From: Polytrichum commune
Taxonomy: Eukaryota > Streptophyta > Polytrichopsida > Polytrichales > Polytrichaceae
Assembly: GCA_950295325.1 (NCBI GenBank)
Contig: OX485804.1
Span: 1,922,001-1,986,000 of the forward strand
Direction: 5' to 3'
DNA: 64,000 nt
The notes beneath the pieces were generated by a model. It was not told where the DNA came from. It saw only the letters and a program-made list of their open reading frames with translations, and did not search any database. Made by a program: the position numbers and the translations under genes. Of the stretch, positions 31,180 through 59,218 are shown piece by piece. Numbering within the stretch: position 1 is the stretch's first letter; each line of letters starts with the position of its first letter.

Positions 31180-33130
31180 ACATAGGCTACTAAAAAGCAT
31201 AGTCCCATTACCCCTATAAAATTTCACTTTGCTAAAGGTCTGAAAGAAACAACGGGGTAAGTACAAATTGGGTTCACTTGGCACGTACTCTACTTCTCTT
31301 TTTCTTTTTGTGTTCCTCTTTGTTTTGATTCGAGGCACAAACCACCATATACCATATATGCACTTTCCAACCATTGGCTTCATATGAAAAGTGAAAACAA
31401 TCATGCCGGCAATGTAGTACACCAAGCTAGCTTCCTATTACACAATGAAACTCCTCATGAAATTTAGATATATTGAAAAGCATATTGACGAATCCGCTCA
31501 AGACTTGACAATAAGTTCAGTTTGATTTAAATATGAATTTTACATAAACTCGGGGGGTTCACTGGCGAAAAATCGTAGAACAACGTGCGATAAAAAATAA
31601 GGTCTAATATATTCATTGTAGATGAATTTTGTAAAAGAATTACATATAATATAGGGGGTTTTAAAATAGTGAAAAATGATTACATGTAAAATACCATCAC
31701 ACCTTTATTTTGAAAAATACCATACCTTATAATCTTTTTTGCAAGGTAAATAGCCCCCCAATAAATAGGTCCCGAACGCACGTGTATGCAAAATATAAGA
31801 GGGAGTGAACCCCCCGAGTACATAAACATAGAACTACAAACTTGGAGCCCCCACATAATATGTTGTTGTCCATCATCATGATCCATTCTCACATTCAAGT
31901 TGAATCAAAATTGGATTTCTAGATGATGAAATAATATTCTCAATGCAATGCAAATTGTCCTTTTCTTTTGAGCAATGATTGAAAGAAAAAGAAAAAGGAG
32001 TGGCAGTGGCCATTAGGAGAAAATTGTTCAATCCGACCATCCTCTACAACTTGTTCATTGTAACTCACAGTGAGAAAATGCATAAATAAATAAGTTTTTG
32101 TTGCCTATTGGAGGGTTTTTTGTTTTTTGTTTTTTAATGAGTTTGGGAGATTTGACAGCTAGAATGATTCGTTTATGCAATTTCTCACCACGAGTTGCAA
32201 TGGATGGTTGGAATGGGATAGGATTTCTATCAGTGGGTGTCCTCTCACCCTGCTGGTGTTCTCTTTCACATCGATCATCGTCCTTTAGACTATAGAGGCC
32301 GCGTGCTTTTGAACACTTGCACTTGAGTTGTCCATGAAGCGGTCTACAAAGACCAAACTCTCGGCACTCAAACATTGACCCATGAGGATGAGAAAGAAAG
32401 AATGTCAACATGATGATTTGCCTTGTTACACTCTAACCTCCCTAATGTCATGCATCTGGCAACCAAAGTGCACATGATATAAAAGGAGGTATGAATTGTT
32501 AACATGGATGCATGATAATAAAGAATTAGCATAGCATGTGACATTACGGAACAACACAAAGTCAACTTGTGAATGATGACAACGTGATGCATGCAAGTGT
32601 GTGGTTTGAATTCTTTGATGGATTACTTTAATGTCAAAAATACCATGATATATGGGAAGGGTGATATTACGAAGGTTAAGGTGTAGGTAGCATGAATTTG
32701 AATCTTCCATGTACATTTCTCCCGATAGATCAAACTATCAATATATTATACATGGAGCATACCTCAACTAAGGATTTGTGGGCACCCGCATAGAGGGCTC
32801 CGGCAAAAACATGTCCCCATAAGTTTGTGGATTATGATTCAATCCAACTTCATCTCACTAGATATACTTAGTGGGGCCTATTTGAAGCGACACTTTCAAA
32901 AACTTTTTTTGTTTCACGCAGTTAATTAACTTCAAAGTTTAAAAAAAAATCATATATTAGCAAATATATATAGAGACTACATACCCCTCCCCCCTCTTCA
33001 AGATCATAGATTCATATGCACTTTACAAAATTTTGCAAAGTTTTTTTAAGAAATAAGCCTTTTACTCTACACTGGGGCAATCCATTGATGTTGAATTATT
33101 AGGTGAGAATCACCACAAATCAACCTTTTC
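31180..33130. other. No supported gene
   Basis: AT-rich sequence with only short open frames. The overlapping opposite-strand frames at 32055-32411 show no family motif. Confidence 0.4.
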
Positions 33131-33350
33131 AATGAATGGGGAGAATTGATGGCTAGATACAAATGAACCATTTGAGTTTGAGAAATAACCAATTCAAACT
33201 CAAAACTACTTGAAATTACCAATCAATTTAGAGGAATTCACATGATGTTTTTCAATTTAATAAAGAATGACCGAAAGATGTCAACACGTAATCGGTCGAT
33301 ATTGGAAACAATAGGATCTCGACCAACTATGCCCAGAATTATCCCTCAAC
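33131..33350 (-). repeat. GGGGAGA-family element, copy 2
   Basis: Reverse-complement relative of 21277-21492. It begins AATGAATGGGGAGAA and keeps GAGTTTGAGAAATAACC, AATCGGTCGATATTGGAAAC and TAGGATCTCGACC. Confidence 0.7.
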
Positions 33351-33898
33351 ACTAAACCTTATTATAGGTGAGACTCTTCTATTAAATGAAGGTATCGCCC
33401 CTTTTTGTGAATAACTTCCTACACCTCCTTGTCGAGTGAATAAATCCATGATTATTCATTGTGATTGGATGCCAAAATGGGTGCTCTTCTTAAAGTGTTC
33501 TTGCATCCTTTTTGCATCTCTACTTTGAATGGTCAGAGTAGTGCTATTTGATACTCAATGCCAAATATGACTGATTGTTTCTAACAATGACTTACTCGAC
33601 AACACCGCTACACTCACTTGATGACGGCTTTAGGATGAAAAATAAATGTCACCAAAAGGTAGGTGTTACTTTAAGGCATCAATACCTTATGCTTCTTAAT
33701 CCATGTGATTGGGGACAAATTTGATATGTCAAAATAGCTATTCATCATGCCTAGTGCACTCCTAGATGGGTGTATGAACATGAGTTGTATGGTATTATTA
33801 AGTACGCCTTTTTGCAATTTGGGTGATACAACCTTGTATTGCTTTGACACTGCTCGACTAATTGACTTCTCTTTAATGAACCGGGAGAACCAACCTCT

Positions 33899-34111
33899 TC
33901 ACTAAACATGACATTTAGTGTCACTTACTAGTTGGATTTACACAATGCTATAGGTTTTTACTATTGATGTAATTTCTTACAAAGTAAAGTTGTTAATGTT
34001 TTATAATGTCCAAAAAACCAATTTGTTGATAAGTATGAGATATATAGTAAATAGATATAGCATTGCGTAATTCTAAATAGTGAGTGAATCTAAATAACAT
34101 ATTTAGTGTAG
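33899..34111. mobile_element. TIR element of the ACTACACTAAAT family, about 213 bp
   Basis: The left end continues ATTTAGTGTCACTTACTAG and the right end is its approximate inverse (ATAGTGAGTGAATCTAAA then ATTTAGTGTAG). The interior words (ATGTCCAAAAAACCAA, TTGTTGATAAGTATGAGATA) match the element at 44074-44299. It is non-coding and sits between two GGGGAGA-family copies. Confidence 0.75.
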
Positions 34112-34120
34112 TTACAAATG

Positions 34121-34305
34121 TAGCGGTTGAGTTTGAGAAAAACCTTGTTGAAGTTCAATTTTTCAATAAAATTACCAATCATTTATAGGAAGATAGAGAA
34201 TATGTCTCAAATTAATAAAGAAAAATTGAAAGATGTCAATATGTAATCGGTTGGACTTGGAAACACTAGGATATTGAGCAACTATGCCCCAAAATCTCCA
34301 CGGAC
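34121..34305 (-). repeat. GGGGAGA-family element, copy 3
   Basis: Starts ten bases after the TIR element. Keeps GTTGAGTTTGAGAAA, ATGTAATCGGTTGGACTTGG, AAACACTAGGAT and CCAAAATCTCC. Confidence 0.7.
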
Positions 34306-34464
34306 ATTGTTGCTCTATCCATAAAATTCCAAATTTAAATACATTTCTTTATATACATATACATTGATATATGTGAAGAACAATGTTTGGATGGCTTGGA
34401 ATTTGTAGGATCCATGTAAACTCATCCATTGCAAAGGTGAAAATGTAGAGAATTACATTATAAC

Positions 34465-34635
34465 ATCTAACATATTATATTTAGACGATTTGACTTCGAA
34501 AGTGGAGTCGGAGAACCCAAATTAGTCTAGTGGTGGTGAATTGGAATGAATCGGCCCTCAATCTTGTAGGGACTAGGCGCCTATTTTGGCACTTGGTATC
34601 ATGTATCTATAATGAAGATTTTACGTATTTTTACA
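34465..34635 (+). repeat. Dispersed repeat related to 39870-40032
   Basis: Shared words in the same order: GACTTCG, GAGTCG, TCTAGTGG, TTGGAATGAATC, CCCTCAA, and a terminal TATCTATAATGA against TATCTATGATGG block. Both are diverged copies of an unidentified repeat. Confidence 0.55.
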
Positions 34636-34639
34636 CTCA

Positions 34640-36570
34640 TAGAATAGTATGAGAATTTGAAGATATCCTTGTTTTTATATCATCCAAGTCTAGAATAGAG
34701 GCATTCAATAACCGATCACTTAAGAGATTCTATGCCAAATCTAGAGAAGTATGAGGCAATGCAAATTTTTCCCATGTAGGAAGGTAGAAATTAGAAGGAT
34801 TGCAATTTTTTGGGAAATTTCATTACTTACATTAATTGAAATTCATGTGAAGTTTTGAAGCCAATAGTTGGCCCAAACACATTACCGGTGTCAAGAGTCT
34901 ACCATAACCATTAATTTTCAGTCCATTCCTCCTCACTTTAGCATTCAAAATTGGGGACATGTGTCATGGCATGGTAGTGCTAACATGTGAGTGGTAACTT
35001 GTGAATAGCAAGGTAGGCAAAATATGTGGAGAGACATCCATTAGTATCCTATAACCATTATATTTTGGCATAAATAGTACATCTTTGTTTATAATAGCAT
35101 GAGTAGGAAGTTCACACAAAATGCAATCAACTCAATGAATGTCTTACTTTAGATTTTAAATGAACAACCACAAGCTTGGCATGAGAGTTTGGAGATGATT
35201 TTTAACATTATCATTAGATTTAACATTAGATTTTTTTTAATGCAAGCACATTCCAAGTATCAAGCATTCTCTGGACTATATTTCTAGATTTCATGTAGGT
35301 TGAAAATTGAATTGATGGAAGCATTGTGGAAAATTTGGAAAGTAAAGTTTTTGGACATAGATGGAAGTACAATAGGAAATTACTTGCCCATATCAATGTC
35401 CACAAAGTAATGAGCACATTCAATGTAGTCAAATGTGGAACCATGCATAGAAGCTTTGTAACTACCCCTATCGTCTTTCATTCCCTCCTCTTCCTCTTTG
35501 TGACTAACATGTTCAACACCCTCCTTCACCTCGACATCTATGAATGGCAAGATGTGACGATTATAACCCGACAACTTACTATAATGTGATGGTGTTGAGG
35601 TTAAATCCACAACCTTTGATTGTAATGGGACAATTATGCAATTGGGAGGGGACATCACATTTTTCTTTTAAAAAAAACAAAACTCAAACGGATGGCATTC
35701 ATTATTGCATAATAACATGTTCAATGACTCCAAAATTGAACAACAATGGAACAAATGGCGAACTTACATACTCTATTGGAATTTTGTGAAAACTTTCTGA
35801 ATAGGTTCCTCACCATCATTGAGGGAGATAACCTTCACCATTGAGCCACCACTACAAGTTCGCCATGAGTATTGTCTGATGGTACCAAGATGACATCAAA
35901 TATGGTGCAGCCTCTCTCAAATGCAATGAAACATCGCTACTAAATCAATACACATGAATAAATACATGTGCAATCCACATAGATATAGAGATCATATTTA
36001 GTGTTTGCAATTCATAATTTATTTATTTTTTAAAACAATCACATTTAAATGCATAAACATCAATAATTGATCATGGTTTAATCAACGTCTTTATTAAGAA
36101 TTGCAAAGACTTTGATTTTTTCCTTGTTCACCTCTCCGCCTCTTTATGACACATGTATTTTCATGATTTGTGTTTATGCAATTGTGCAATTAAAAAAGGT
36201 CGGTAACTCTATTGGAATTCTCCCTACTACCCGTGTTAGCTACCCCTTTTAGTCTACATTACTTTACTACCTAGACCTCATTACTAGCATGATACCAATG
36301 ATATTATTCTTGAAAGTTGTACTAGTACTGGCCACCGCTTGATATTGGTCGAGACTCATAAATGTACAACCTTATAATTTGACCTCCTTACAACCATATC
36401 TTTGTACTAGTTATAACTTATGGTATATCTTTTGATTTACTCCCTCTTCTACCGACAACATTATAACCCTCCAACTTGTGATTGATCTACCTTATTTACT
36501 TCTAGCTTCCTAGCTTGGTCTATATTCACCACTCACTTATAATACTGACCCATTATCACACTTTCTGAGT
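34640..36570. other. No supported gene
   Basis: AT-rich. Complementary overlapping frames at 35326-35658 show no recognisable motif. No reverse-transcriptase reading frame was found ahead of the LINE that starts near 36575. Confidence 0.45.
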
Positions 36571-36613
36571 AGGTACAACGATTTGTGGCCAAAGAAATCT
36601 TAAGTTCATTATC

Positions 36614-39094
36614 ATGATCACCTCTTCTTATGTGGGTCATCCTAAGGGTTACAAGCACCACTCTTATATTTATCCTTCACATATCTTCTCCTTCGCCAAT
36701 AGTTGTGGTATCCTAGTCAATAAACCCACTATCCAAATAAATACCTCAGTAGCCAACGTATATGACCAAAATGGAAACCACATCACCACCATTAATATAG
36801 ATAGACTACAATGGCTTTGGAGCCAATTCACACATAATAAACAACAACACTTAACTAACTTCCTTCACCCACCACCACAAGATTTTGAAACCGAAGTACT
36901 ATGGCTCCTCCAAAGATATGTCACTATACTTCCCAAGAAAAAGCCAAAGATAATTCAACCACAAAACCTACATCAAACACTCCACCCCGAAATCATCAAA
37001 ACACTAATCACAACATTCCAAATCACACACACTTACTACTCATCCCCCCTCACCTGCCCCATTCAAATAACACAATACCACTCCCCACATAACCGAGACA
37101 TAATATTCGGCTCACTAGGACACGCAAAATCCTTCAAATGGACAGGAATAAGACTAGCTTTCCCCACGGACTACAACACAACGTTAGAAGCCATCCACTG
37201 GGCCATAATGGCCGCCAAGGAAGACCCCAAAACAGTTACCATCCTAATCACCAACCATAAAGACTGGACAACACAAAACCTCCCAATCGCCACAAAACCC
37301 GACGTACACGTCATGGCAACCATACCACCACACACCATAAAATATAAACCTACACCCGAATGGCCAACATACTACCAATACAACGAACCGGCACTCACAT
37401 CAATCATTTGTGTACACAACCAAGTAACATTAAGTCCAAACGTCCAAACCCCGCACACATTAAAATAAATTTTGCAACAAATAACTAACACACATATAGA
37501 CACCCACCCCATTAAGCCCAATCTCACACACTATAAAGTTAAACTCTCCAATATATGGAAAAACACCCCCAAAGTAAATATACTACACATTGATAATCAC
37601 ACTACCATACCAATACCAAATACTTACACATACACCCACCCCCCCAAATTCCCCCCACAACAATGCGTATACACAGATGGCTCCTTCATCCCCCCAACAA
37701 AAAACTCTGAGGGACAAATTGTGGGCAATACTGCAGGATCGGGAGTATATAGCCCCAATAATAACATCCGAATAGCAAAACGATTACCAGGCTATCAAAA
37801 TATACTTAGAGCCGAACTATATGCCATACTCCTCGCTATCAAAAACATAAAAATCACACAAACATAAACACACATATTTACCGACAGCCTCAACAACATA
37901 TACCTCATAAATAACCACATACAACACCCAACATCACAACACCACCACCCTGACAAACTACTTATAGCCGCCATAGTAAGGAAGATTTACTGGACCCCCT
38001 ACAAAATCTACATACATAAAGTCCGAGCGCACACGGGCATCACCGGAAATGAACTAGCCGATGACCTAGCAAATGAAGGGAACAACTTAGAAAAACCAGA
38101 ACAAACCCCACACATCCACATCGCCCGCCCCACCCCCTACTGGCTTGCCATCTGCCCCACAGGCACACACGACGGAGCCATCCGCAACTTACGCACATTC
38201 ATAACAAAAGCACACGAGAACTTAGAAACAGCCTTAGCCATAAATAAATTCCCCTACGTAGATAAATGGCTCTCAAACACCCAAATAAACCAAAAACTCT
38301 CTAATCACTTTTGGAATAATGATCAAATACCAGATACCCAAATCACCCAAACATTAAAATTTCAATACGCTCAATATATGGGCAACCATAGAAAAAGTAT
38401 TTTTTGGCCCCTCACACATCCAAACCCCAATTGCACACTTTGCCACAGAAATGAGAGAGACACGTGGCCGCACCTACTATCAATATGCGAACACCCATAC
38501 TTAAAAGGCCTCCGAATCGCAAGACATAACAAAGCAGTACATCTGATCACACAAACACTACAAGCTAACAAACACACACGGTTCCTCACAAGAGCCAATG
38601 CCGGACATCTCAACAACCGGCCACAAGAAACCACAGTACCAGAATGGTTATTAGCATGCACATGCCCACAAATGCCATGCCAATGTCAAGCTAAACTTAG
38701 ACCTGACATCTTATGCATGATCGGTGCCCCAAATCATATCACCCTACCCGTATTATTATCATCCAACCACATAGTACAATTTATCGAATTCACTTACTGC
38801 CACGATAGATTCCCTGAACAAGCCATTACACAGAAACACGCTAAATACGACCCACTAAATCACGCCATTCACAACAAGGGATGGAAAACCAACCCCGTTA
38901 TAACAATCATTGCAGGAGTACGAGGAGCCATACGCAAACACTCCATCCAAAAACTAACGGACTTAAAAATCCCTAAATCCAACATCAAAAAACTCATGAA
39001 AGACATACACCAAAACGCTATTAAATACCTCACGTACTTGGTACTTAATAAAAGAAAACTTGACAATAAACAACCACCCGTACCCCCACCTTAA
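36614..39094 (+). mobile_element. Dualen/RandI-like LINE: RNase H plus R2-type endonuclease, 3' part
   Basis: One frame of 827 codons, open except for TAA at 37466-37468 and 37865-37867, ends at TAA 39092. After an unassigned N-terminal part (about 284 residues, with NRDIIFGSLGHAKSFKWTG and HVMATIPPHTIKYKPTPEW), an RNase H domain has all catalytic positions: YTDGSF, LRAELYAI, FTDSLN and HKVRAHTGITGNELADDLA. Next come a CTLC-x13-H-x4-C zinc knuckle (DTWPHLLSICEH) and a second Cys cluster (CTCPQMPCQCQ). A restriction-like endonuclease pattern follows: RPDILC, FIEFTY, and K-x-x-KY then GVRGAI, the P-D...E...K arrangement of R2/NeSL C-termini. RNase H with such an endonuclease is known from Dualen/RandI elements. 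The reverse transcriptase is missing, consistent with 5' truncation. The coding strand is rich in A and C and very poor in G. Confidence 0.75.
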
Positions 39095-39160
39095 TCAAAA
39101 TGGATTTCTAGAGAACCACCAGAGCCCACCTCCTAACAGAGGCATAAAATCACATACTAC

Positions 39161-39250
39161 ATCACGGAATCCCGTGATTAGTATGAGGCCAACAGGCTCA
39201 TAGTCATGCTCGTGCGAAAATACGAGCGTTATTTTTTCTTTTCTTTTCTT
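39161..39250 (+). other. Three stem-loops and a T-rich tract at the LINE 3' end
   Basis: Three consecutive hairpins follow the LINE stop codon: ATCACGG/CCGTGAT (39161-39178), TATGAGGCC/GGCTCATA with one bulged base (39182-39202), and GCTCGT/ACGAGC (39208-39227). A T-rich run (39230-39250) comes next. They probably form the structured 3' UTR that LINE reverse transcriptases use for template recognition. Confidence 0.7.
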
Positions 39251-42200
39251 GTGGTTGCCTCCTCAAAAACAACCCAATTCTACTTCTAGCTAATTACTTA
39301 GTAAAGCATGACTCCTTGCCATAGGAGCCCGTACTGAAGTTTTGACAACATCATTTACAAAGTATTTGAGGAAAATAAAAAACATTTTGAGCTATCTTCA
39401 AGGTTATCCAAATGTTGATATTTGTATACTTGGCAATGAGCACACAAATTTCAAATTTTTGGGTCACAATTCGATGTGCAATTGAAAGAACTAAATGAAA
39501 ATTTGTGCCAACTTTAAAGTTACCAAGATGTTGATGTTAGCCACCTCATTTCAATTTTGTGGAGATTTGTCATTGTTGCTTTAAAAGCCTTGGGGATTGA
39601 CTCCAAGGCCTTTGTACCCAAAATGACTCACTTTAAACTTTTGGAGGGTTTTCAAAATCACTTTGAAAGCCTTAAGAATTGATGCGAAGACCATTTGTAA
39701 ACAATTTGAGGAAACCAAAGAAAATTGTAAAATAAACGTGTCCTTTTATACACAATGGATGAGTTCACCTAGATGCCTCCAAGCCAATGCTTGATTGTAT
39801 TCTTGTCCCCCCTTTTGAAAAAGGTTAAAAAGTATGTGGTGTCTACATAAAACTCGTTCATTGGGTTGGTGAAAGCAACGTAAAATGTTATATTTCTAAG
39901 TGTTTCAACTTCGGAAATAGACTCGAAGAGGTTAAATTTATCTAGTGGAGTCATGTTGGAATGAATCAACCCTCAACCTATAGAGTACGTGTTTTTATTA
40001 GAGCCCGTATATCTATGATGGATGAGTTTACGTGGCCAATAGGAAGTGGAGGATATATTTCACTCGAAGGAATCCATAGCAGAGATTCGGAGATCGAAGC
40101 ATGTGGATTTGTTCATGATTTTGCTTATGTATGTTTTTGGCAAGGTATGGTAAGATTTTCTTCAATGTTTTGTTAGCCAGAGGTCTTAGTATTTACTCTC
40201 CCTGAGCTCCTCGCTCCTTAGCATGGCCTCGATGGGGTGAATGTTCATAACAACTACAAAGGGGTAGGGTGAACCAAGGGAGGGGAGATGAGAATGTTCA
40301 TTTTCATTGTAGAGTCTGGAGGTTTCTATTTTAACCGAATTAACTTCTACACAAGAGTCAAAGACTCCAAATCAACCTATTCAGTGCAAGTTGGAATGAA
40401 TAAACAATCAACCTATATAAAGTCGATGTGTGCTATTACCCCCTCGGTAGGTGTTAGAAAAACCAAACCGACCTCGACGTTTGCGAGGTTTCTTAACTTG
40501 TACTCATTGCGGCTTTTGGTGATTAAATTCACTTCCACCTAATTCCAAAAAAAAATAATAATAATAATAAATAAAAGCGGGAGGAAAGCCGAGTGGATGG
40601 AGTTTGGATTGGATGGATAAAAATATAATGGACTCTTGGATGAACTTGTCAAACACAGCTGGGGCCCAATAAATGATGCTAACTTAATTCGGTCCGTCGG
40701 CATGTGGCTCAACCTTGTGCGAAACGCAAAGCATATAAAAAACAATTTGCAGGCGATGGCCTCCCTCGCCCTATCAATGGCTCTGGTCTTCATGGAGTCC
40801 TTGTCGGAGTGGTGCCATTCCCCAAAAGCAAGTTGGTACTCTCCACTTACATATGGATGGGCCAAAAAGGAAAAAAGAATGTACCATTATAGAGCCTCCG
40901 CCGTTCAATCATCCTTTCTTCCTATGTCTCTTATTTTGGGCCTCCTTCATATCTCAAGGGTTGCTTATACCATGCTCACACCAAGGTCAATTTCTGCTCC
41001 TCGGCAGTAGCAGCAACAAGAGTCCCTCTTGATAGGGAAAGTTCATTTTTTTGGAAATTTATTGCTATTAGTGTGGATTTTTTTGATTTTGTTTCGTCTT
41101 ACTCGTAGTAACCTCTCTAGATGGAATGAACTGCAATTTCACCCATTCCCTTCACTACATCCAAGGCATGAACTCCTATGAAGGCGGAAACTCTCACATT
41201 GTTGTGGTCCAGTGGGCGGTCGTAGTGTGGGCTTGGTGTTACACTACGAAGGTGGTTGTGATGGTCCACCACAATCAACCACCACCTGCGATTTTTTTCA
41301 TTCACGTTTGTCTCGTGCAAATCCTTTGGTTGTGATTGGTGGTGGGGTTGGTTTTCTAAGATGCAATCTATCATTGGTTCAAGTCTTGGGTTCACGACGA
41401 ATCAAAATGATATCATCCTTGTTCACTTTAGATTGTAGTGTTGAAATGCTGACCTCCTCAACTTCCCACACGGAACTTAGTCTTGAAGCTCTCTACTGAT
41501 GCCACATGAGAGTGAACGACCACCCCAAGGACGGTTAACCACGTAGAATAGGGAGGGTTGACGGGGTAAGAAGTGATTGTGATCATAAGTAACATTTGTT
41601 ATGCAATTTTCCTTGGAAATAAAACCAAAGAAAGCAAACCACTACACTAATTATTGTGTTTAGTGTCATACATTATCTTATGCCAATGTGGTAAGGTCTT
41701 TTCTAATGACACCTCTTACGAATTAGTTCACAACTGTCATCCCAACTAGTTTGTGTATTGTCATCCCAATTGACTTTTAGTTCATCCACTGCCACATTAT
41801 GGCGTATTTTGCACCCTATAGATTATTTACATATACATATTGTCATGGATGAGATCTAGATGAAAACATACTTAGTAAGGGATAGTAATTACAACATTGT
41901 AGCTCTACAAGATTCAATTTATTTTTAAAAAAAATCCGTGTTCTATGTCCTATTATAAATACGTAAATTCTTGGAAGTTGGCTACAGATTCATGGCATGC
42001 ATGTAAGGGTATTGGGTTGCAAATCAAACATGTCATGTAATACAAACGACTCCAAATGAAACAAGGACCCGCATTTGAGTATGTGGTTGATTTGGCCCCA
42101 TGTGTTTCAATTCGATGAATTTTGAGTTTATGGAATTTAATTCTAGGCTCAAGGAGTCACGTAACGAGTGTTTTTGAGCTGTAACTTAACTGGTTCCCAA

Positions 42201-42382: not shown

Positions 42383-43860
42383 TTGAAAATTGGAATCAAT
42401 AAAATGAAGTTGATTTTAAAGTCTAGGAATTTGAAAAGGCTAATGGAACTGAAAGTACGTCATAATGGTTTCCAACCGACTAATTTTTTTAGAGTGGCAG
42501 AGTGTGATAGCCTTCGCAAGATAGAGGTTGATGTCAACTTGGTGGTCCAATTGAAAGAACGACTTGAGGTTCCCTAGGACTACATTCTCAAATAATGATG
42601 GAAACTTATTTCTAATGGGCTTATATAGGGGACATTCCAACACAAAATGTACCTCATTTTCAATTGCATTAAAGAAGCAAAAGTGGCATAGTCTAGTATC
42701 TCTAGAGATAGGGATAGCTAACCATGATCCGATTTCAATGGCTGATCTATGGTTCGTGGTACAGTAAGCGGCAATGGTCTTGCGTCATGGTGGTGTCAAT
42801 GGTTGCTCCAAGTACAATTCACATTCGTTTTTGAGAAAATCCTTGAGGTGGAGGTAATCTAGTTTCTTCCCTAAGAGATGGAAATAATTTTTCCAATGTT
42901 TAGGAATAAATGCCTCCTTGATACCATCATAAGTTATTTTAGATGTGATTGGGTTGCCATGAGTGTCCTATTCAGATAGACCCCATGATGTTTTCGACAT
43001 GATTGTCGATTTGTGTCAGGTGTTAAATCCATGTTCGGCCAAGTGTCATGAAAATGAGGTTACTTTATTGACTAACCAAGAGGGGACATGTGGACGAGCC
43101 GTTGTTGAAAGCCTATGGTGAGCTTGGGAGCATGTAATTCTATGGGAAGTTCTTCAAATCCGGCCAACAAAATATGATAGGTTGTCAAAGAGACATTATA
43201 CGCATCTTTGTGCCCTTCTCAAAAACCTTCCAATGAGAGTTTTCCATGTCACCTCCCCAAATTTTAGTGTCATACGTGAAAGTAAGCACCAAAGCCTTGA
43301 ATAGATGGGATTTGAGTGCCCAACATGTGACCCCAGTTGTTGCTTCCTAAATTGAAGTGCCCATCAAGGCTTTCATACCTACAATTTTTCATCTTTTACT
43401 AGATGGTATAGAATATCCATTTGAATAAAAATCAATTTCAAGGTATTGTATTCATGAGTTATTTCAATTGGATCTATAGAAAAAAAACTTTTGGTTTAAT
43501 TCCCTTTTGTTGCAGATAAATATCATGATTTTAGTCTTAGATAAATAAATTTCAAGGCTAGAAGAAACAAAAAACCTTATTTAGCTTGTTAAAATTGTCT
43601 TTGTAGGCATCTTCCAAATTTAGATAGTGCAACAACATTGATATTGTAAAGAATAATGAAAACTATTGTGTTAAATAAACAAAAAAAAATCCTTGTCGAT
43701 CTTGTTCATATATTTTTCAAGTTGTCAATGTACAAGCCAACTAGTGTGGGAGAGAGGGGACATCCTTGTTTAACACCAATGTTGAACATTACTTCACCAT
43801 AGGCCTTGAAGTTAAAGACTTCTTGACCTAATTTAAACCAATATTCCATCATGCTTCAAG
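42383..43860 (-). mobile_element. Decayed LINE reverse transcriptase (L1/jockey-like)
   Basis: Read downward from 43860, the C-terminal half of a LINE reverse transcriptase is recognisable. The order is YWFKLGQEVFNF, then IGVKQGCPLSPTLVGLYID (the conserved motif before the active site), LYNINVVALSK where the catalytic YADD should stand, a LEIYLSKTKIMIFICNKRE block (usual LE-x-N-x-xKTK-x-MIF), LVLTFTYDTKIWGG, and near the end ECPLYKPIRNKFPSLFENV with LCHSKK. Many stops and frameshifts separate these pieces, and both catalytic Asp residues are lost, so the copy is dead. The N-terminal endonuclease part is absent. Confidence 0.75.
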
Positions 43861-44073
43861 CTTCTCAAATTGCTTTTAAGGATTAAAAATTGCTATTTCA
43901 TTAGAAATGCATATTGTCATGACAACTTCTGTGCTACTACCAGTAAAGAAAAAAAAGTGATAAATATAACCCATTAATCCAAACACTCACATCCGTGGGG
44001 TGGACGGTCAACCCTCTCACAACAATCACAATTGTCATAAGAGGAGCCGTACACAAAACAATCAGTACAAGCA

Positions 44074-44299
44074 CTACACTGATTAATGATATGTATTGTC
44101 ACTTACTATTTGGAATTACGTATTTCTATAACATTTATTGTTAAGGTAAAGTTCTCCCAAGCAAAAGATGGTAATGGTCTATAGTGTCAAAACAACCAAT
44201 TGGATCTTTGTTGGTTAATAAAATGAGATATTTAGTAAACATTAATAGCACAATGTAATTCCAAATAGTAAGTGACACTAAATACCATAAACGGTGTAG
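44074..44299. mobile_element. TIR element of the ACTACACTAAAT family, 226 bp
   Basis: Left arm CTACACTGATTAATGAT continues TGTCACTTACTATTTGGAAT; the right arm is its inverse (ATTCCAAATAGTAAGTGACA then CGGTGTAG), giving about 50-bp arms. The interior matches the copy at 33899-34111. It has no coding capacity and no convincing target duplication. Confidence 0.85.
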
Positions 44300-45077
44300 C
44301 ACATCTCACAATACCACCATTGTATGTGTGTGTGTGGGGGGGGGGCTCATGAAAAGAATACTTGATTAATACATATGATACCACACATACATAATTCTAA
44401 ACAAAAAAAGACTAAAAACAAACAAGCCCCCATAGACCCACCTTAAGAGGATCCCCCCCCTTTCCCAACCCCCAGAAGGATGGAAGTAACCCTACCCTAA
44501 AACTTGATAAAACATGATTAAGGTATGGACCAAATGGGCTCCCATTCACGTTGGTGTACAAAAACACGAACGTTCCTTTTCCTTTATTTTTTAAATTTTA
44601 GAAATGCACATGAATGGCCTTGCAGTTACATACTCACAGAATTGCCCCTCTAAACACATCACCCTCAAAATTCCAAAATATTGTAGAGGGCACTCTATGC
44701 CATTTGTACTAGTGCCATAATGTAACTTCCATGTGGGATTTAAGAGGGACATGTGCCAAAACTTGAGGATATTTATTTATTTCATTCTGGTCAAAATAGG
44801 AGTCCTCTGTAGTATGCAACTGTTGTCAAGTGCCAATTCGGTTGTTTCAAGTTGTGAGGGTAAAATTCACATGAATTTACATTAACAAGTGAATAAAATT
44901 TCTTTCAAATAAGGTGGGCAACCTTGTTGTGAATGCTTCCAACTCCACAAACAATTTTGCCCATTGGATTGAATGTAGAATTATCTAGTCTGATAAGCAG
45001 TTGCAAGTCACACACATTAACATATCAAGGTGTCAAACTCAAAGTTGAGATGGAAAAGTTGTAGGAAGTAAAAGCAA

Positions 45078-55062: not shown

Positions 55063-57481
55063 CTAGGCTTTGAAGGCAAGGCATCCCGAGAGGCAGCCTG
55101 CGAGGATCCTCTTGTCGATTGCAGCGTTCACCGAGTTCATCTGTTCAGAAACACTCAACTACAAAGTCAGCAAAGGTGCCTGAGAGAGACCACAGTGCAT
55201 TCACTAGCAAGAAAAATTAATCTGAGACAATCCTTTATTGAAAGAGGCAGAGTGGGATTTTGCACCTGAAATGTCTCATCAAGTATTTGGTATCTTGATA
55301 ACCTAGCCCTTTGTTCCTCCTTCACAGACACAGACACAGCACATGGTAAGGTAATCCTAACAGAAGTCACCTCCATCTGCAGGTTCTGTTATTTCAAGAT
55401 CAATCTTCATGCATGAAGAATGATCAAGTCAGTTTGTTCAAACACATCAGAACTTATCCATAAAGTGGCAAAAGAGAGGGGTCGAAATGGTGAGTTTTAG
55501 AGGAATCCTCATCATAGTCCAGTTTTAGTATCTCCTGTTAAGTCCAAACAAAAAAAGCTCCAAAAAGATTGAGTTGTGTGTCAAGAATAGAGAATTTAGA
55601 AGTTTGGGCCCAATCTTGAGTTTGAGTTTAAGTAGTTTCACCCTTGGAATGCATGTGAGCTGAGGGGACATCACCCTCCTCCATTAGGCCAGGTTGATAT
55701 CACCCTCTTATTATTTTAACTCTAAAAGAGGGTTCAAGATCTAGGTTGCACAAATTGCATATTGAAGTTTCCAAAGTGCCTTTATTGTTTCGATAAACTC
55801 AGTCTTACCTTTGAAATCCTCTTGGAGGGTCCAGATTCTCTTAAAAAACAAGGTTGCTTTAAGAAAAACCTTACATTGATGGTGGCAAGATGCAAGAATG
55901 GAGTAAGAAAAAAAGGATGATGCTACACACCATGGACATATGGTCGTTATCCCAAATCAGGTAGACTGGATACCGAATGGCTCCCTTTGGTGGCACAGGC
56001 GAACAAGAGGTTTTGTTGGTGAGTTCAGGCGGGGGGCCAATGGAGGGACCCATTGTGTTGGGTCCTGAGACGTACATGTGACATCCCAATGGAGGAGGAG
56101 GGGGAGGCAGCGGAATTGGTGGCAGTGGTTGAAGGCCTCCGTTGGTAGCTGCATGAATGTCCATGGAGTGGTAACACCAGCAAACATTAGCAAACATGTC
56201 AACCTAAGGTAGACAGCCATTAAAATACTTACTTTTTCTGACTATCCCACTTCTCCTAGGATACAAAACTCATGATTAGTACAAGATGGTTAGCAAATCC
56301 AAACTGAGGCCATAGCCACTTTCCTCATTATTTTTGGAGCTCGTGTGAATATCTAATTAACCTAATTAATTTTTGAAAGTGAAAATTCTCATGCTCATTA
56401 AATGGTCATATAGATCACCCAATTATCTTGACCTTTGAGTCCAGAATTGCTATCATATTTTGAACACGTAGTCCATTCTCTTTTAATTACATGTCTTTTT
56501 GGTACCATTTCTGGAGGCACGCTAACCACATATCACTCAAATATAGGTGTCCTAATAAGCAAGTAACCGACGTGGGGTTGTCTACCTTAGTTGCTGCTTT
56601 GGGCACATCTCTTGTCTACAAGAACAATGATGAACTGATAAATTGAAATGTCACCACGGATGATTACGAAAAGTCTGAGTTTACTTGAATTTTTGGTATG
56701 ACATATGCATTGAAATGCTGCTAGAAATATGGTCTGGCTGTTTGACTGGGAACCAGTGAATGATAAACCCATACACATCCTTGATTTGTTATATCCAAAG
56801 TCAATGGGTGATTAGGGTGCTTGCCTTCAAATAGAGATGACATTTGTTGTCCAATGGTGGTTGGCATCATGGAAGGAGGTGTCGCCTCCTTCAAATATCT
56901 TAGTTCACCTGCAGGTACATATTTTGCCCTATCAACAACATACTTTCTCCTCCTTTTAACCCTCACCATTGGGTACTGAATTTGACCTCAAGTTTTTATA
57001 GATAGCACATAGGGTTGATGTATTTGGAATACGATCTTAAATACGTAACATGCATCTTCATAGGATCCACAATATGCAATTCTCATGTGAAATTGAAATT
57101 GTAATCTACTATGAGAGGAATTGCCATCCTAATTAATTTGTATTTTTGCATCTATGTATCTTATATAACATTTTCATATACCCTCACATGCAGTTGTGAA
57201 CAAAGTCCTCTTTTAAAAGTGCTATTATACAAGTGTGTATTTCAGTGCTATTTCATGTTTCTTTGAGACTGAAAAAGGTTTAGGGGTTAACCATATTTCA
57301 GTGTCCTTGTCAAATATTGCTACTCAGAGATTTGGAAACTATTACGTACTTGAGATTGTAGTTGGAAAGGACATGGTTGAGGTTTCCGTCAGGGCTGGCG
57401 GCAAAGGGGTTGCTGCAAACGAGGATGTGTTCACCAATTGCTGAGCCGGAGCACTCAAAATGTACACATGAGGTTGCAGTG

Positions 57482-57512
<31 letters not shown>

Positions 57513-57521
57513 AAGTGGCGG

Positions 57522-57596
<75 letters not shown>

Positions 57597-59218
57597 TGAA
57601 TTAATTATTGTGGAAGAAGGGGGTAGTGGTGGTCGGATGGGAAAAAGAGGTTGTGAAGGGGGTTGAAGTTGCTGTTGCTGTTGCTGTTGCCCTTGAATTG
57701 GGAACAACGGCCGTAGAGCAGTGCTAATTGGATTATACGTCGGAATTTGAGGCATTGCAGGAGCTGTTGAGGGCCGGTATCCTTGTGGAGGTGCTGGCCC
57801 AGGCCGCCATATGAATGGAGGTCGCTGCATGGGTGCCGGCGCAGCTCTAACATTCGGCACGTACCTGATAATAATGTTTCAATTCTTGTGAGTCAAAGAA
57901 TTATATATGTTTAATGTGACTGACCGACCAATCAAACTCACTCACTCACTCACTCTCTATCTGTCTGACACATGGAAACCCTAATTTCATGGAGTTTTGG
58001 GTTCCTGTTCTGTCCCAAACACTACCACATATCTGAGCACGCTCATGCATGGCTTTCTGGCGTTAATTAATAGACAGGGAACACACGGCAACTTAAACAG
58101 CTCCTCCACACTTGACTAAAATATACTTCCATCATGAGGTTTGAGGATATCTGATTTGTTAATAATTGTGATGAAAACAGAAGAAACTTTGTTTGTACGT
58201 CCTACGCACCTCCACCGAACCGAAATGAAGCAAGCATGATATTCCCAAAAGAGTTATGACCTGGTGGGCACAAGCAACACAGAGAAAAGTGTGTCAAGGG
58301 TGGTGGAGGGCGCGAGGAGCTTACACAGGGCGCATGGCAGCAGTAGTAGTGAACTGCGTTTGGGGCGCCAAGCCCAATGCGTTGGCAATAATGAAGGGTG
58401 TTGAAGGATGTGCCTCCATCTTGGCAACCTTTGACGGTTTTTCATGGTCTGCGTCGATCAATTATACCTTAGAGAGGAAATGCATGTTTGTGTGCAGGAT
58501 TATGCTCAATAAGATAATGCAGTTGAATGCAAGCATAATCTCCAGTTCCATGATATATACTTATTGATTCCTAAGTTAACAGGGTCTGAAAGTTTGAAAT
58601 GATTACCGTCTTTTCCGACATTCCCTTCATGTGCTGCCAAGAGCTCAGGTGGAATGCCCTCCATTCCAAAAATTTCAAGCTCGATTGACTCCCGCTCCGG
58701 CTTTGCATTGGGTACCCTGTTACCAGAAGCAGTCAATACATTTATCAAGGCTGCAACAATTTTATTTTATTTTTTAAAATCTGTGTATTCTGCAACCCTC
58801 AAACTGAATATCTCACCATCGGAGCTCAAACAGACAGTATTCGCATAATCCACAAACAGATATTCAGTGTAGAATGTAATGGTTTTTTCAAAATTTACAA
58901 ATGGAAACATGGATGGTAATCTTGAACATTGTAGATCGAAAATGTTGAAAAATGAAAACCTATTGTAATGTAGTAATCAGTTATGGAAATTGGCAATAAC
59001 AGGAGACATGAGACTGACTTGTTGATGGAGACTTTGTGAACTTGAAGGACGTGGATGACCATCCCACCGGCCGTGGACAGCTTCTTATGGCACACATGGC
59101 ACTTGAAATGCTTTGCTTTCTGGTGCTGGATCAGAATCTTCTCGCTCTCAAACTCACGCTCACAATAATAACACCATATTGAGTTCACCGACCCACTTTT
59201 TTTCTTCTTCTTCCCCAT
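55063..59218 (-). CDS. SUF4: SUF4/BuGZ-type C2H2 zinc-finger protein with polyQ tracts
   Basis: Nuclear zinc-finger protein homologous to Arabidopsis SUPPRESSOR OF FRIGIDA4 and animal ZNF207/BuGZ. SUF4 recruits a transcription complex to FLC in flowering plants; BuGZ acts in the spindle and in splicing. Seven exons (59019-59218, 58607-58716, 58325-58448, 57350-57864, 55931-56148, 55266-55319, 55063-55140) total 1299 nt, 432 residues, with all phases matching. MGKKKKK precedes two fingers: C16-x2-C19-x12-H32-x4-H37 and C40-x2-C43-x12-H56-x4-H61 ([20 protein letters not shown]). Then come VPNAK and [14 protein letters not shown], a Pro-rich part, glutamine runs of about 25, 10 and 6, [28 protein letters not shown] and [11 protein letters not shown]. 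The length exceeds Arabidopsis SUF4 (about 370), mostly through glutamine. The final motif is divergent: [13 protein letters not shown] replaces the usual ESRLAGRMAF-type end. Confidence 0.93.
57483..57596 (-). repeat. Glutamine-coding trinucleotide repeat (CAA/CAG) in SUF4-like exon 4
   Basis: 57522-57596 codes about 25 Gln and 57483-57512 codes 10 Gln, split by PPL. The first run mixes pure CAA with CAACAG pairs; the second is CAACAG alternation. A third six-Gln run lies at about 57671-57690. Confidence 0.95.

Follow-up and report, generated by a model that had tools for sequence, protein, structure and literature searches.

A decayed LINE remnant that combines RNase H with a probable restriction-like endonuclease in a likely plant genome

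What kind of mobile element left the broken reading frame found at 36569-39094 of a 64,000-nucleotide stretch of DNA (hereafter the window), and does its array of parts belong to any LINE described from plants? A sequence-only reading had placed RNase H boxes, two Cys/His clusters and an RPD...E...KxxKY pattern in one frame at this locus, and both the coordinates and the motifs proved correct. The parts of the element and of a second copy are as follows.

36569-39094, plus strand: whole reading frame, three open pieces, one frame throughout
About 36500-36870: region within which the 5' junction of copy 1 lies
36569-37465, plus strand: first open piece, 299 aa, N-side of the element's protein
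36869-37147, plus strand: PCIF1_WW-like stretch (Pfam PF12237)
37466-37468, plus strand: first in-frame TAA stop, between the first and second pieces
37469-37864, plus strand: second open piece, same frame
37661-38080, plus strand: RNase H domain (Pfam RNase_H, protein residues 365-504)
37670, 37808, 37877, 38027 and 38048, plus strand: RNase H boxes YTDGS, RAELYA, FTDSL, AHTG and NELAD, respectively
37865-37867, plus strand: second in-frame TAA stop, within the RNase H domain
37868-39091, plus strand: third open piece, C-terminal, 408 aa, same frame
38432-38530, plus strand: zinc knuckle CX2CX9HX4C (CTLC-x9-H-x4-C) and RIARHN, as in R2 proteins
38657-38686, plus strand: second Cys cluster CTCPQMPCQC, between knuckle and nuclease, absent from the three compared R2 fragments
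38699-38932, plus strand: restriction-like endonuclease motifs RPDI (38699), IEFTY (38783, with E at 38786), KHAKY (38834) and GVRGAI
39092-39094, plus strand: stop codon closing the frame
39095-39247, plus strand: 3' untranslated region with hairpins (the final one at 39206-39229) followed by a T/C-rich tail
43897-44591, plus strand: copy 2, shorter and more decayed, with the nuclease C-terminus (frame change and stops), the 3' untranslated region and a terminal hairpin at 44548-44573

Over 36614-39091, the coding frame contains 2 stops while the other five frames contain 32-61, and letter shuffles (n=2000) gave a mean of 37.6 stops in this frame with a minimum of 19. These counts exclude a chance frame, and 36569-39094 is therefore a decayed protein gene. 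The TAA breaks leave the reading frame unchanged, and the parts follow one another within it in the order PCIF1-like stretch, RNase H, R2-type zinc knuckle, second Cys cluster and RPD...E...KxxKY...RG. An altered code in which TAA is read as Q was considered, both stops being TAA, and was dropped: decay is the simpler reading because copy 2 has stops and a frame change. The coding strand has much A and C and little G (0.09-0.16 in 250-base windows across 36751-39000, compared to 0.19 in the whole window); ahead of the element, at 36001-36750, G is already low (0.11-0.12) and T is high.

The RNase H domain matched the Pfam RNase_H profile at E 1.6e-15 (57.9 bits) over profile positions 4-139 of 141, the internal stop being read through, and the five conserved catalytic residues are all kept (D 37676, E 37814, D 37883, H 38030 and D 38060). 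NCBIfam gave ribonuclease HI at 0.003, below its cut-off, and an irrelevant match at 0.02.

The C-terminal region was compared to R2 proteins. When 38402-39016 was searched against the PDB up to E 10, only R2Bm matched (8gh6 and 8ibw, E 1.3 and 1.4). The hhalign alignment to three R2 proteins, whose compared fragments begin after the first two knuckle cysteines, gave a P of 4.3e-5 with a probability of 69% and 40% identity over 42 columns, and an R2 profile run over the 1227 ORFs of the window ranked the element's ORF first with E 0.00098 (Z = 1000), the next one being at 0.77. The knuckle-RHN pattern occurred in 1/200,000 shuffles, and the order of the nuclease motifs, common to R2Bm and R2Tg, in 0/200,000 shuffles and in 1 of the 1227 window ORFs (at least 30 aa), these patterns having been composed after inspection of the sequence and the nuclease pattern having been guided by R2 proteins. 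The CCHC knuckle stands immediately ahead of the endonuclease motifs, as RLE LINEs require, with an X9 spacing one residue above the CX2-3CX7-8HX4C given for such LINEs in the available part of PMC5678591. KY and RGA of the nuclease recur in copy 2.

Taken alone, the nuclease core was not recognised by a two-sequence R2 profile (rank 41/1000 with its own shuffles, rank 297 among the window ORFs), and its end-free alignment score was reached by 244/1000 shuffles for R2Bm and 49/1000 for R2Tg. A phmmer search of the whole 408-aa piece against the PDB gave no R2 match and one nanobody at 0.44, taken as chance, and two single-sequence AlphaFold models were too poor for a fold search (mean pLDDT of 34.1 and 37.0). 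Because of the motif order and the R2-like knuckle, the element probably contained a restriction-like endonuclease. The likeness of the C-terminus to such enzymes, as first proposed, is supported for the part that includes the knuckle, which matches R2; for the nuclease core by itself it is carried by the motif order, the R2 profile having left the core unmatched.

Relatives were sought in collections of viral and prokaryote records, in which absence says little. With the 408-aa piece, one pattern-matching stretch was obtained in IMG/VR and none was confirmed, and no match up to E 0.1 was found in phages; with the 841-aa read-through protein, 23 stretches were obtained in genome_contigs, none confirmed. 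The knuckle pattern occurred 3 times in IMG/VR and 15 times in genome_contigs, and 0/18 of these was a LINE by eye.

Copy 2 shows that this protein gene belongs to a mobile element. A tblastn search of the protein against the window matched 43950-44057 (2.7e-4) and 44346-44432 (0.074), and blastn within the window matched 44378-44446 (0.001). A further piece, which begins at 43897 in a different frame, matched weakly (8.4 over the window, 0.051 when 4.2 kb were searched) and reads R where the nuclease has its acidic residue. The 3' untranslated region aligned to copy 2 with a local score of 54, the maximum in 500 dinucleotide shuffles being 31 and the next-best score elsewhere outside the element 37. 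The final base with detectable similarity is 39247, whose counterpart in copy 2 is 44591. Folding of 39095-39262 gave -50.4 kcal/mol vs -32.2 +/- 3.6 (z -5.0), and 0/200 shuffles were as low. In both copies a hairpin lies just ahead of a T/C-rich tail, TTATTTTTTCTTTTCTTTTC and CCTTTTCCTTTATTTTT, respectively. When the hairpin pairs were read by eye, one was C-G or U-A depending on the copy, two differed one-sidedly and one was broken in copy 2, and these pair changes between the two copies are suggestive only. Because copy 2 shares the C-terminus, the 3' untranslated region and the terminal hairpin, the element is repeated and its 3' end can be placed near 39247. The two copies (n=2) have an unequal 5' extent and one common 3' end; such copies are what LINE integration leaves, which supports a LINE.

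An 11-base word at 36497 and 39281 was rejected as a target-site duplication, since its position is about 33 bases beyond the common 3' end and chance alone would supply 0.13 words of this kind. No target-site duplication was found at the 3' end of copy 1, for which the longest shared word was 11 bases. Pfam detected no reverse transcriptase in 7/7 plus-strand pieces of at least 45 aa at 33000-36560, which fits truncation rather than a missed domain. Among these upstream plus-strand pieces, one gave a zinc-finger match at 0.088, below cut-off, and a 92-aa piece at 35311-35586 (plus strand) gave Keratin_assoc at 2.2e-4, also below cut-off.

Altogether, the frame is taken as what remains of a LINE that carried RNase H and probably also a restriction-like endonuclease. 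We consider it likely that it is a dead and apparently 5'-truncated RLE-type LINE in which a PCIF1-derived domain preceded RNase H, and RNase H the knuckle.

Several other features were observed around the element. Copy 2 is interrupted between its protein pieces by an inverted repeat with 47-base arms (44083-44129 with 44245-44291), and a 68-base stretch at 33908-33975 is an inverted match (76%) of this repeat; the insert probably represents a small DNA transposon family. A direct repeat of 191 bases, 71% alike, is found at 33154-33344 and 34109-34299, 955 bases apart. On the minus strand, 42440-43830 contains remnants of a different LINE, with an RT-like stretch GVKQGCPLSPTLVGLYID (Pfam RVT_1 at 0.007, below cut-off) and, further on, a knuckle ORF with HFVLECPLY, which has the same CX2CX9HX4C spacing as the element and no Pfam LINE match. 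An open frame with long glutamine runs lies at 57342-57878 (minus strand). Pfam further recognised in the window an AP2 domain (2.6e-11), parts of a 2OG-Fe(II) oxygenase (1.2e-18) and a C2H2 finger (1.6e-6), along with a RING-like region below cut-off. The neighbouring AP2 domain and 2OG-Fe(II) oxygenase make it likely that the element lies in a plant genome, as had been supposed.

The roughly 284 residues ahead of RNase H, previously said to match no domain, are now covered in part by PCIF1_WW (PF12237). The match was obtained with the first piece (E 3.2e-9, 37 bits), with the 841-aa read-through protein (E 1.8e-8, 34.6 bits) and with the cut 36614-37153 (E 3e-9, 37.1 bits), all three above the curated cut-off of 31.1, and it spans about positions 15-103 of the 176 of the profile. 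SSPLTC and FGSLG pair with ASPLNC and FGSRG of vertebrate PCIF1 in alignments to PDB sequences. PCIF1 is described, in the part of PMC6318281 at hand, as a methyltransferase that places m6A on the cap-adjacent adenosine and whose activity was lowered by disruption of NPPF. In the alignment to zebrafish PCIF1, the place of this catalytic motif reads FPTD (37160-37171), just past the PF12237 match; the alignment to human PCIF1 ends ahead of it. DUF2043 appeared at 0.02-0.034, below cut-off. It could be argued that the similarity is one of chance or composition and that the stretch is a mere LINE linker. Direct comparison to vertebrate PCIF1 points that way, with pairwise scores to two sequences reached by 36/1000 and 4/1000 shuffles and a weak hhalign result (P 0.021, probability 2.3%); phmmer of the piece found no PDB chain up to E 10, 37100-37465 alone had no Pfam match, and the catalytic motif is missing, the match ending just ahead of its place. 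However, three cuts of the stretch exceed the curated cut-off and the family appeared in 0/4 controls (three shuffles and one reversal), though 2/4 gave unrelated families at 0.05-0.08, and a chance match seems to us unlikely. We retain the link to PCIF1 because the Pfam profile passes its cut-off, direct comparison being weak: the stretch is probably PCIF1-like and, in this copy, probably a pseudoenzyme. In IMG/VR, the two PCIF1-signature patterns gave 0 and 0 stretches and the NPPF pattern gave 9, of which 0/9 was a PCIF1 by eye on the frames. Among the titles and abstract starts listed from the open-licence literature, none described a fusion of PCIF1 to a retrotransposon.

Whether the element was a resident of this genome and to which clade it belonged have to be considered together. 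A recent entry from another organism, such as a green alga or a fungus, or an assembly contamination would account for the low G of the coding strand, though the flank ahead is low as well, and similar C-termini may occur in unannotated proteins of arbuscular mycorrhizal fungi. It would also agree with the land-plant LINEs being given as L1 and RTE only in the consulted part of a 2022 review (PMC9033089). Against this, two unequally decayed copies lie amid plant-like genes, one of them broken by the inverted-repeat insert, so that long residence is favoured and contamination disfavoured; we hold such an entry or contamination to be quite unlikely. RNase H-bearing LINEs are known from plants (PMC5348765, as far as its available text goes), and a Ta11-type plant L1 carrying an archaea-like RNase H might be proposed. 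In that excerpt, the CCHC precedes the C-terminal RNase H in plant and oomycete L1 and follows RNase H in the other RNase H-bearing LINEs, and the element has the latter order, that is, reversed with respect to plant L1. Moreover, of the five conserved residues, the one that is H in the element (AHTG, 38027) is reported to be R in the archaea-like RNase H of plant L1 (PMC4640811, in part), and the element's tail is T/C-rich and not poly(A), making this reading highly improbable. An RLE LINE of another or new clade, to which RNase H was joined independently of Dualen/RandI, conflicts with the best explanation on the clade only and is a possibility of some weight, short of an even chance. The reverse transcriptase is missing from this copy; RNase H was gained repeatedly, for example in the oomycete Utopia (PMC4640811, passages available), and neither the second Cys cluster nor the PCIF1-like domain is mentioned for Dualen in the portions consulted of PMC4640811, PMC3636483 and PMC3747384. 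However, Utopia has RNase H before the reverse transcriptase whereas the element has it directly before the knuckle and nuclease (PMC4640811, same passages), and within the cited sources, as far as they were available, only Dualen/RandI joins RNase H, a restriction-like endonuclease and a green-lineage host.

Among known clades, Dualen/RandI thus fits best; the reverse transcriptase and AP endonuclease by which it is defined are absent from this copy. In the parts of the sources at hand, RNase H is known from Dualen/RandI (PMC4640811) and Dualen has both an AP and a restriction-like endonuclease (PMC3636483). A table in PMC3747384 lists 233 L1 and 7 RTE families for flowering plants and, in rows read as green algae, 15 L1, 8 RandI and 6 RTEX families; the 8 RandI families end in (ATT)n or (CTATTT)n, which the tails of the two copies resemble though the repeat is not identical, and an algal SINE linked to RandI-2 ends in (CTTT)n. 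The sequence-only reading had called the element a Dualen/RandI-like LINE. The LINE stands, with RNase H and an R2-type C-terminus in one frame and a second copy behind it, while its assignment to Dualen/RandI goes beyond the evidence. The combination of parts is absent from the plant elements described in the consulted part of the review (PMC9033089). The open-licence literature, as far as it was searched, yielded no report of restriction-like endonuclease retrotransposons in land plants, and nothing further on plant or fern LINEs with this endonuclease or on Rhizophagus LINEs.

How might a living copy of this best-fitting LINE have worked? RLE-type LINEs integrate by target-primed reverse transcription, and RNase H aids the second strand. 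A living copy would make a capped RNA, and its protein would nick the target by the restriction-like endonuclease. The reverse transcriptase, absent from this copy, would then use the nick to begin the cDNA, starting from the 3' hairpin and the T/C-rich tail, and RNase H would remove the RNA and allow second-strand synthesis; early stopping would yield 5'-truncated copies like copies 1 and 2. Without NPPF, the PCIF1-like domain may not methylate and may instead hold on to the element's RNA by its capped 5' end; this is a guess and the weakest step. Because NPPF is missing, cap-holding is likelier than methylation in this copy. We regard as doubtful the broader proposal that some land plants host ancient-type LINEs, with RNase H and RLE, that captured a PCIF1-type fold as a catalytically dead cap-holder upstream of RNase H. 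If true, a retrotransposon would here retain its RNA by the 5' end, in a manner not described before. Were a land plant to have an R2-type endonuclease together with RNase H, the range of this old type of LINE would extend past the green algae, and a domain resembling a cap methyltransferase in its protein would suggest that a LINE can grip its RNA by the capped 5' end.

Finally, we compared the element to known systems. With the cap methyltransferase PCIF1/CAPAM it shares the SPL.C and FGS.G signature; it differs by FPTD at the NPPF place, by the rest of the domain being unrecognised and by the in-frame fusion to a retrotransposon protein. R2Bm and R2Tg have the knuckle, RI.RHN and then KPD/RPD, D/E, KxxKY and RG in a like order, while the distance from RHN to RPD is 33 residues in R2Bm and 59 in the element, and that from PD to the acidic residue 13 and 27, respectively; RNase H is not known in R2. 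Plant L1 elements of the Ta11 kind are likewise plant LINEs carrying RNase H, but besides the reversed CCHC/RNase H order, the H instead of R and the lack of poly(A) noted above, they have an AP endonuclease where the element has restriction-like motifs. Utopia, a LINE that targets U2 snRNA, differs in its oomycete form by the position of RNase H, as already described. Dualen/RandI of green algae shares with the element the presence, in one LINE, of RNase H and (by motif here) a restriction-like endonuclease, as well as a 3' end made of a short pyrimidine-rich sequence and not of poly(A); the element differs in a host that looks like a land plant and in carrying the PCIF1-like domain and CTCPQMPCQC, neither of which the consulted passages mention for Dualen.
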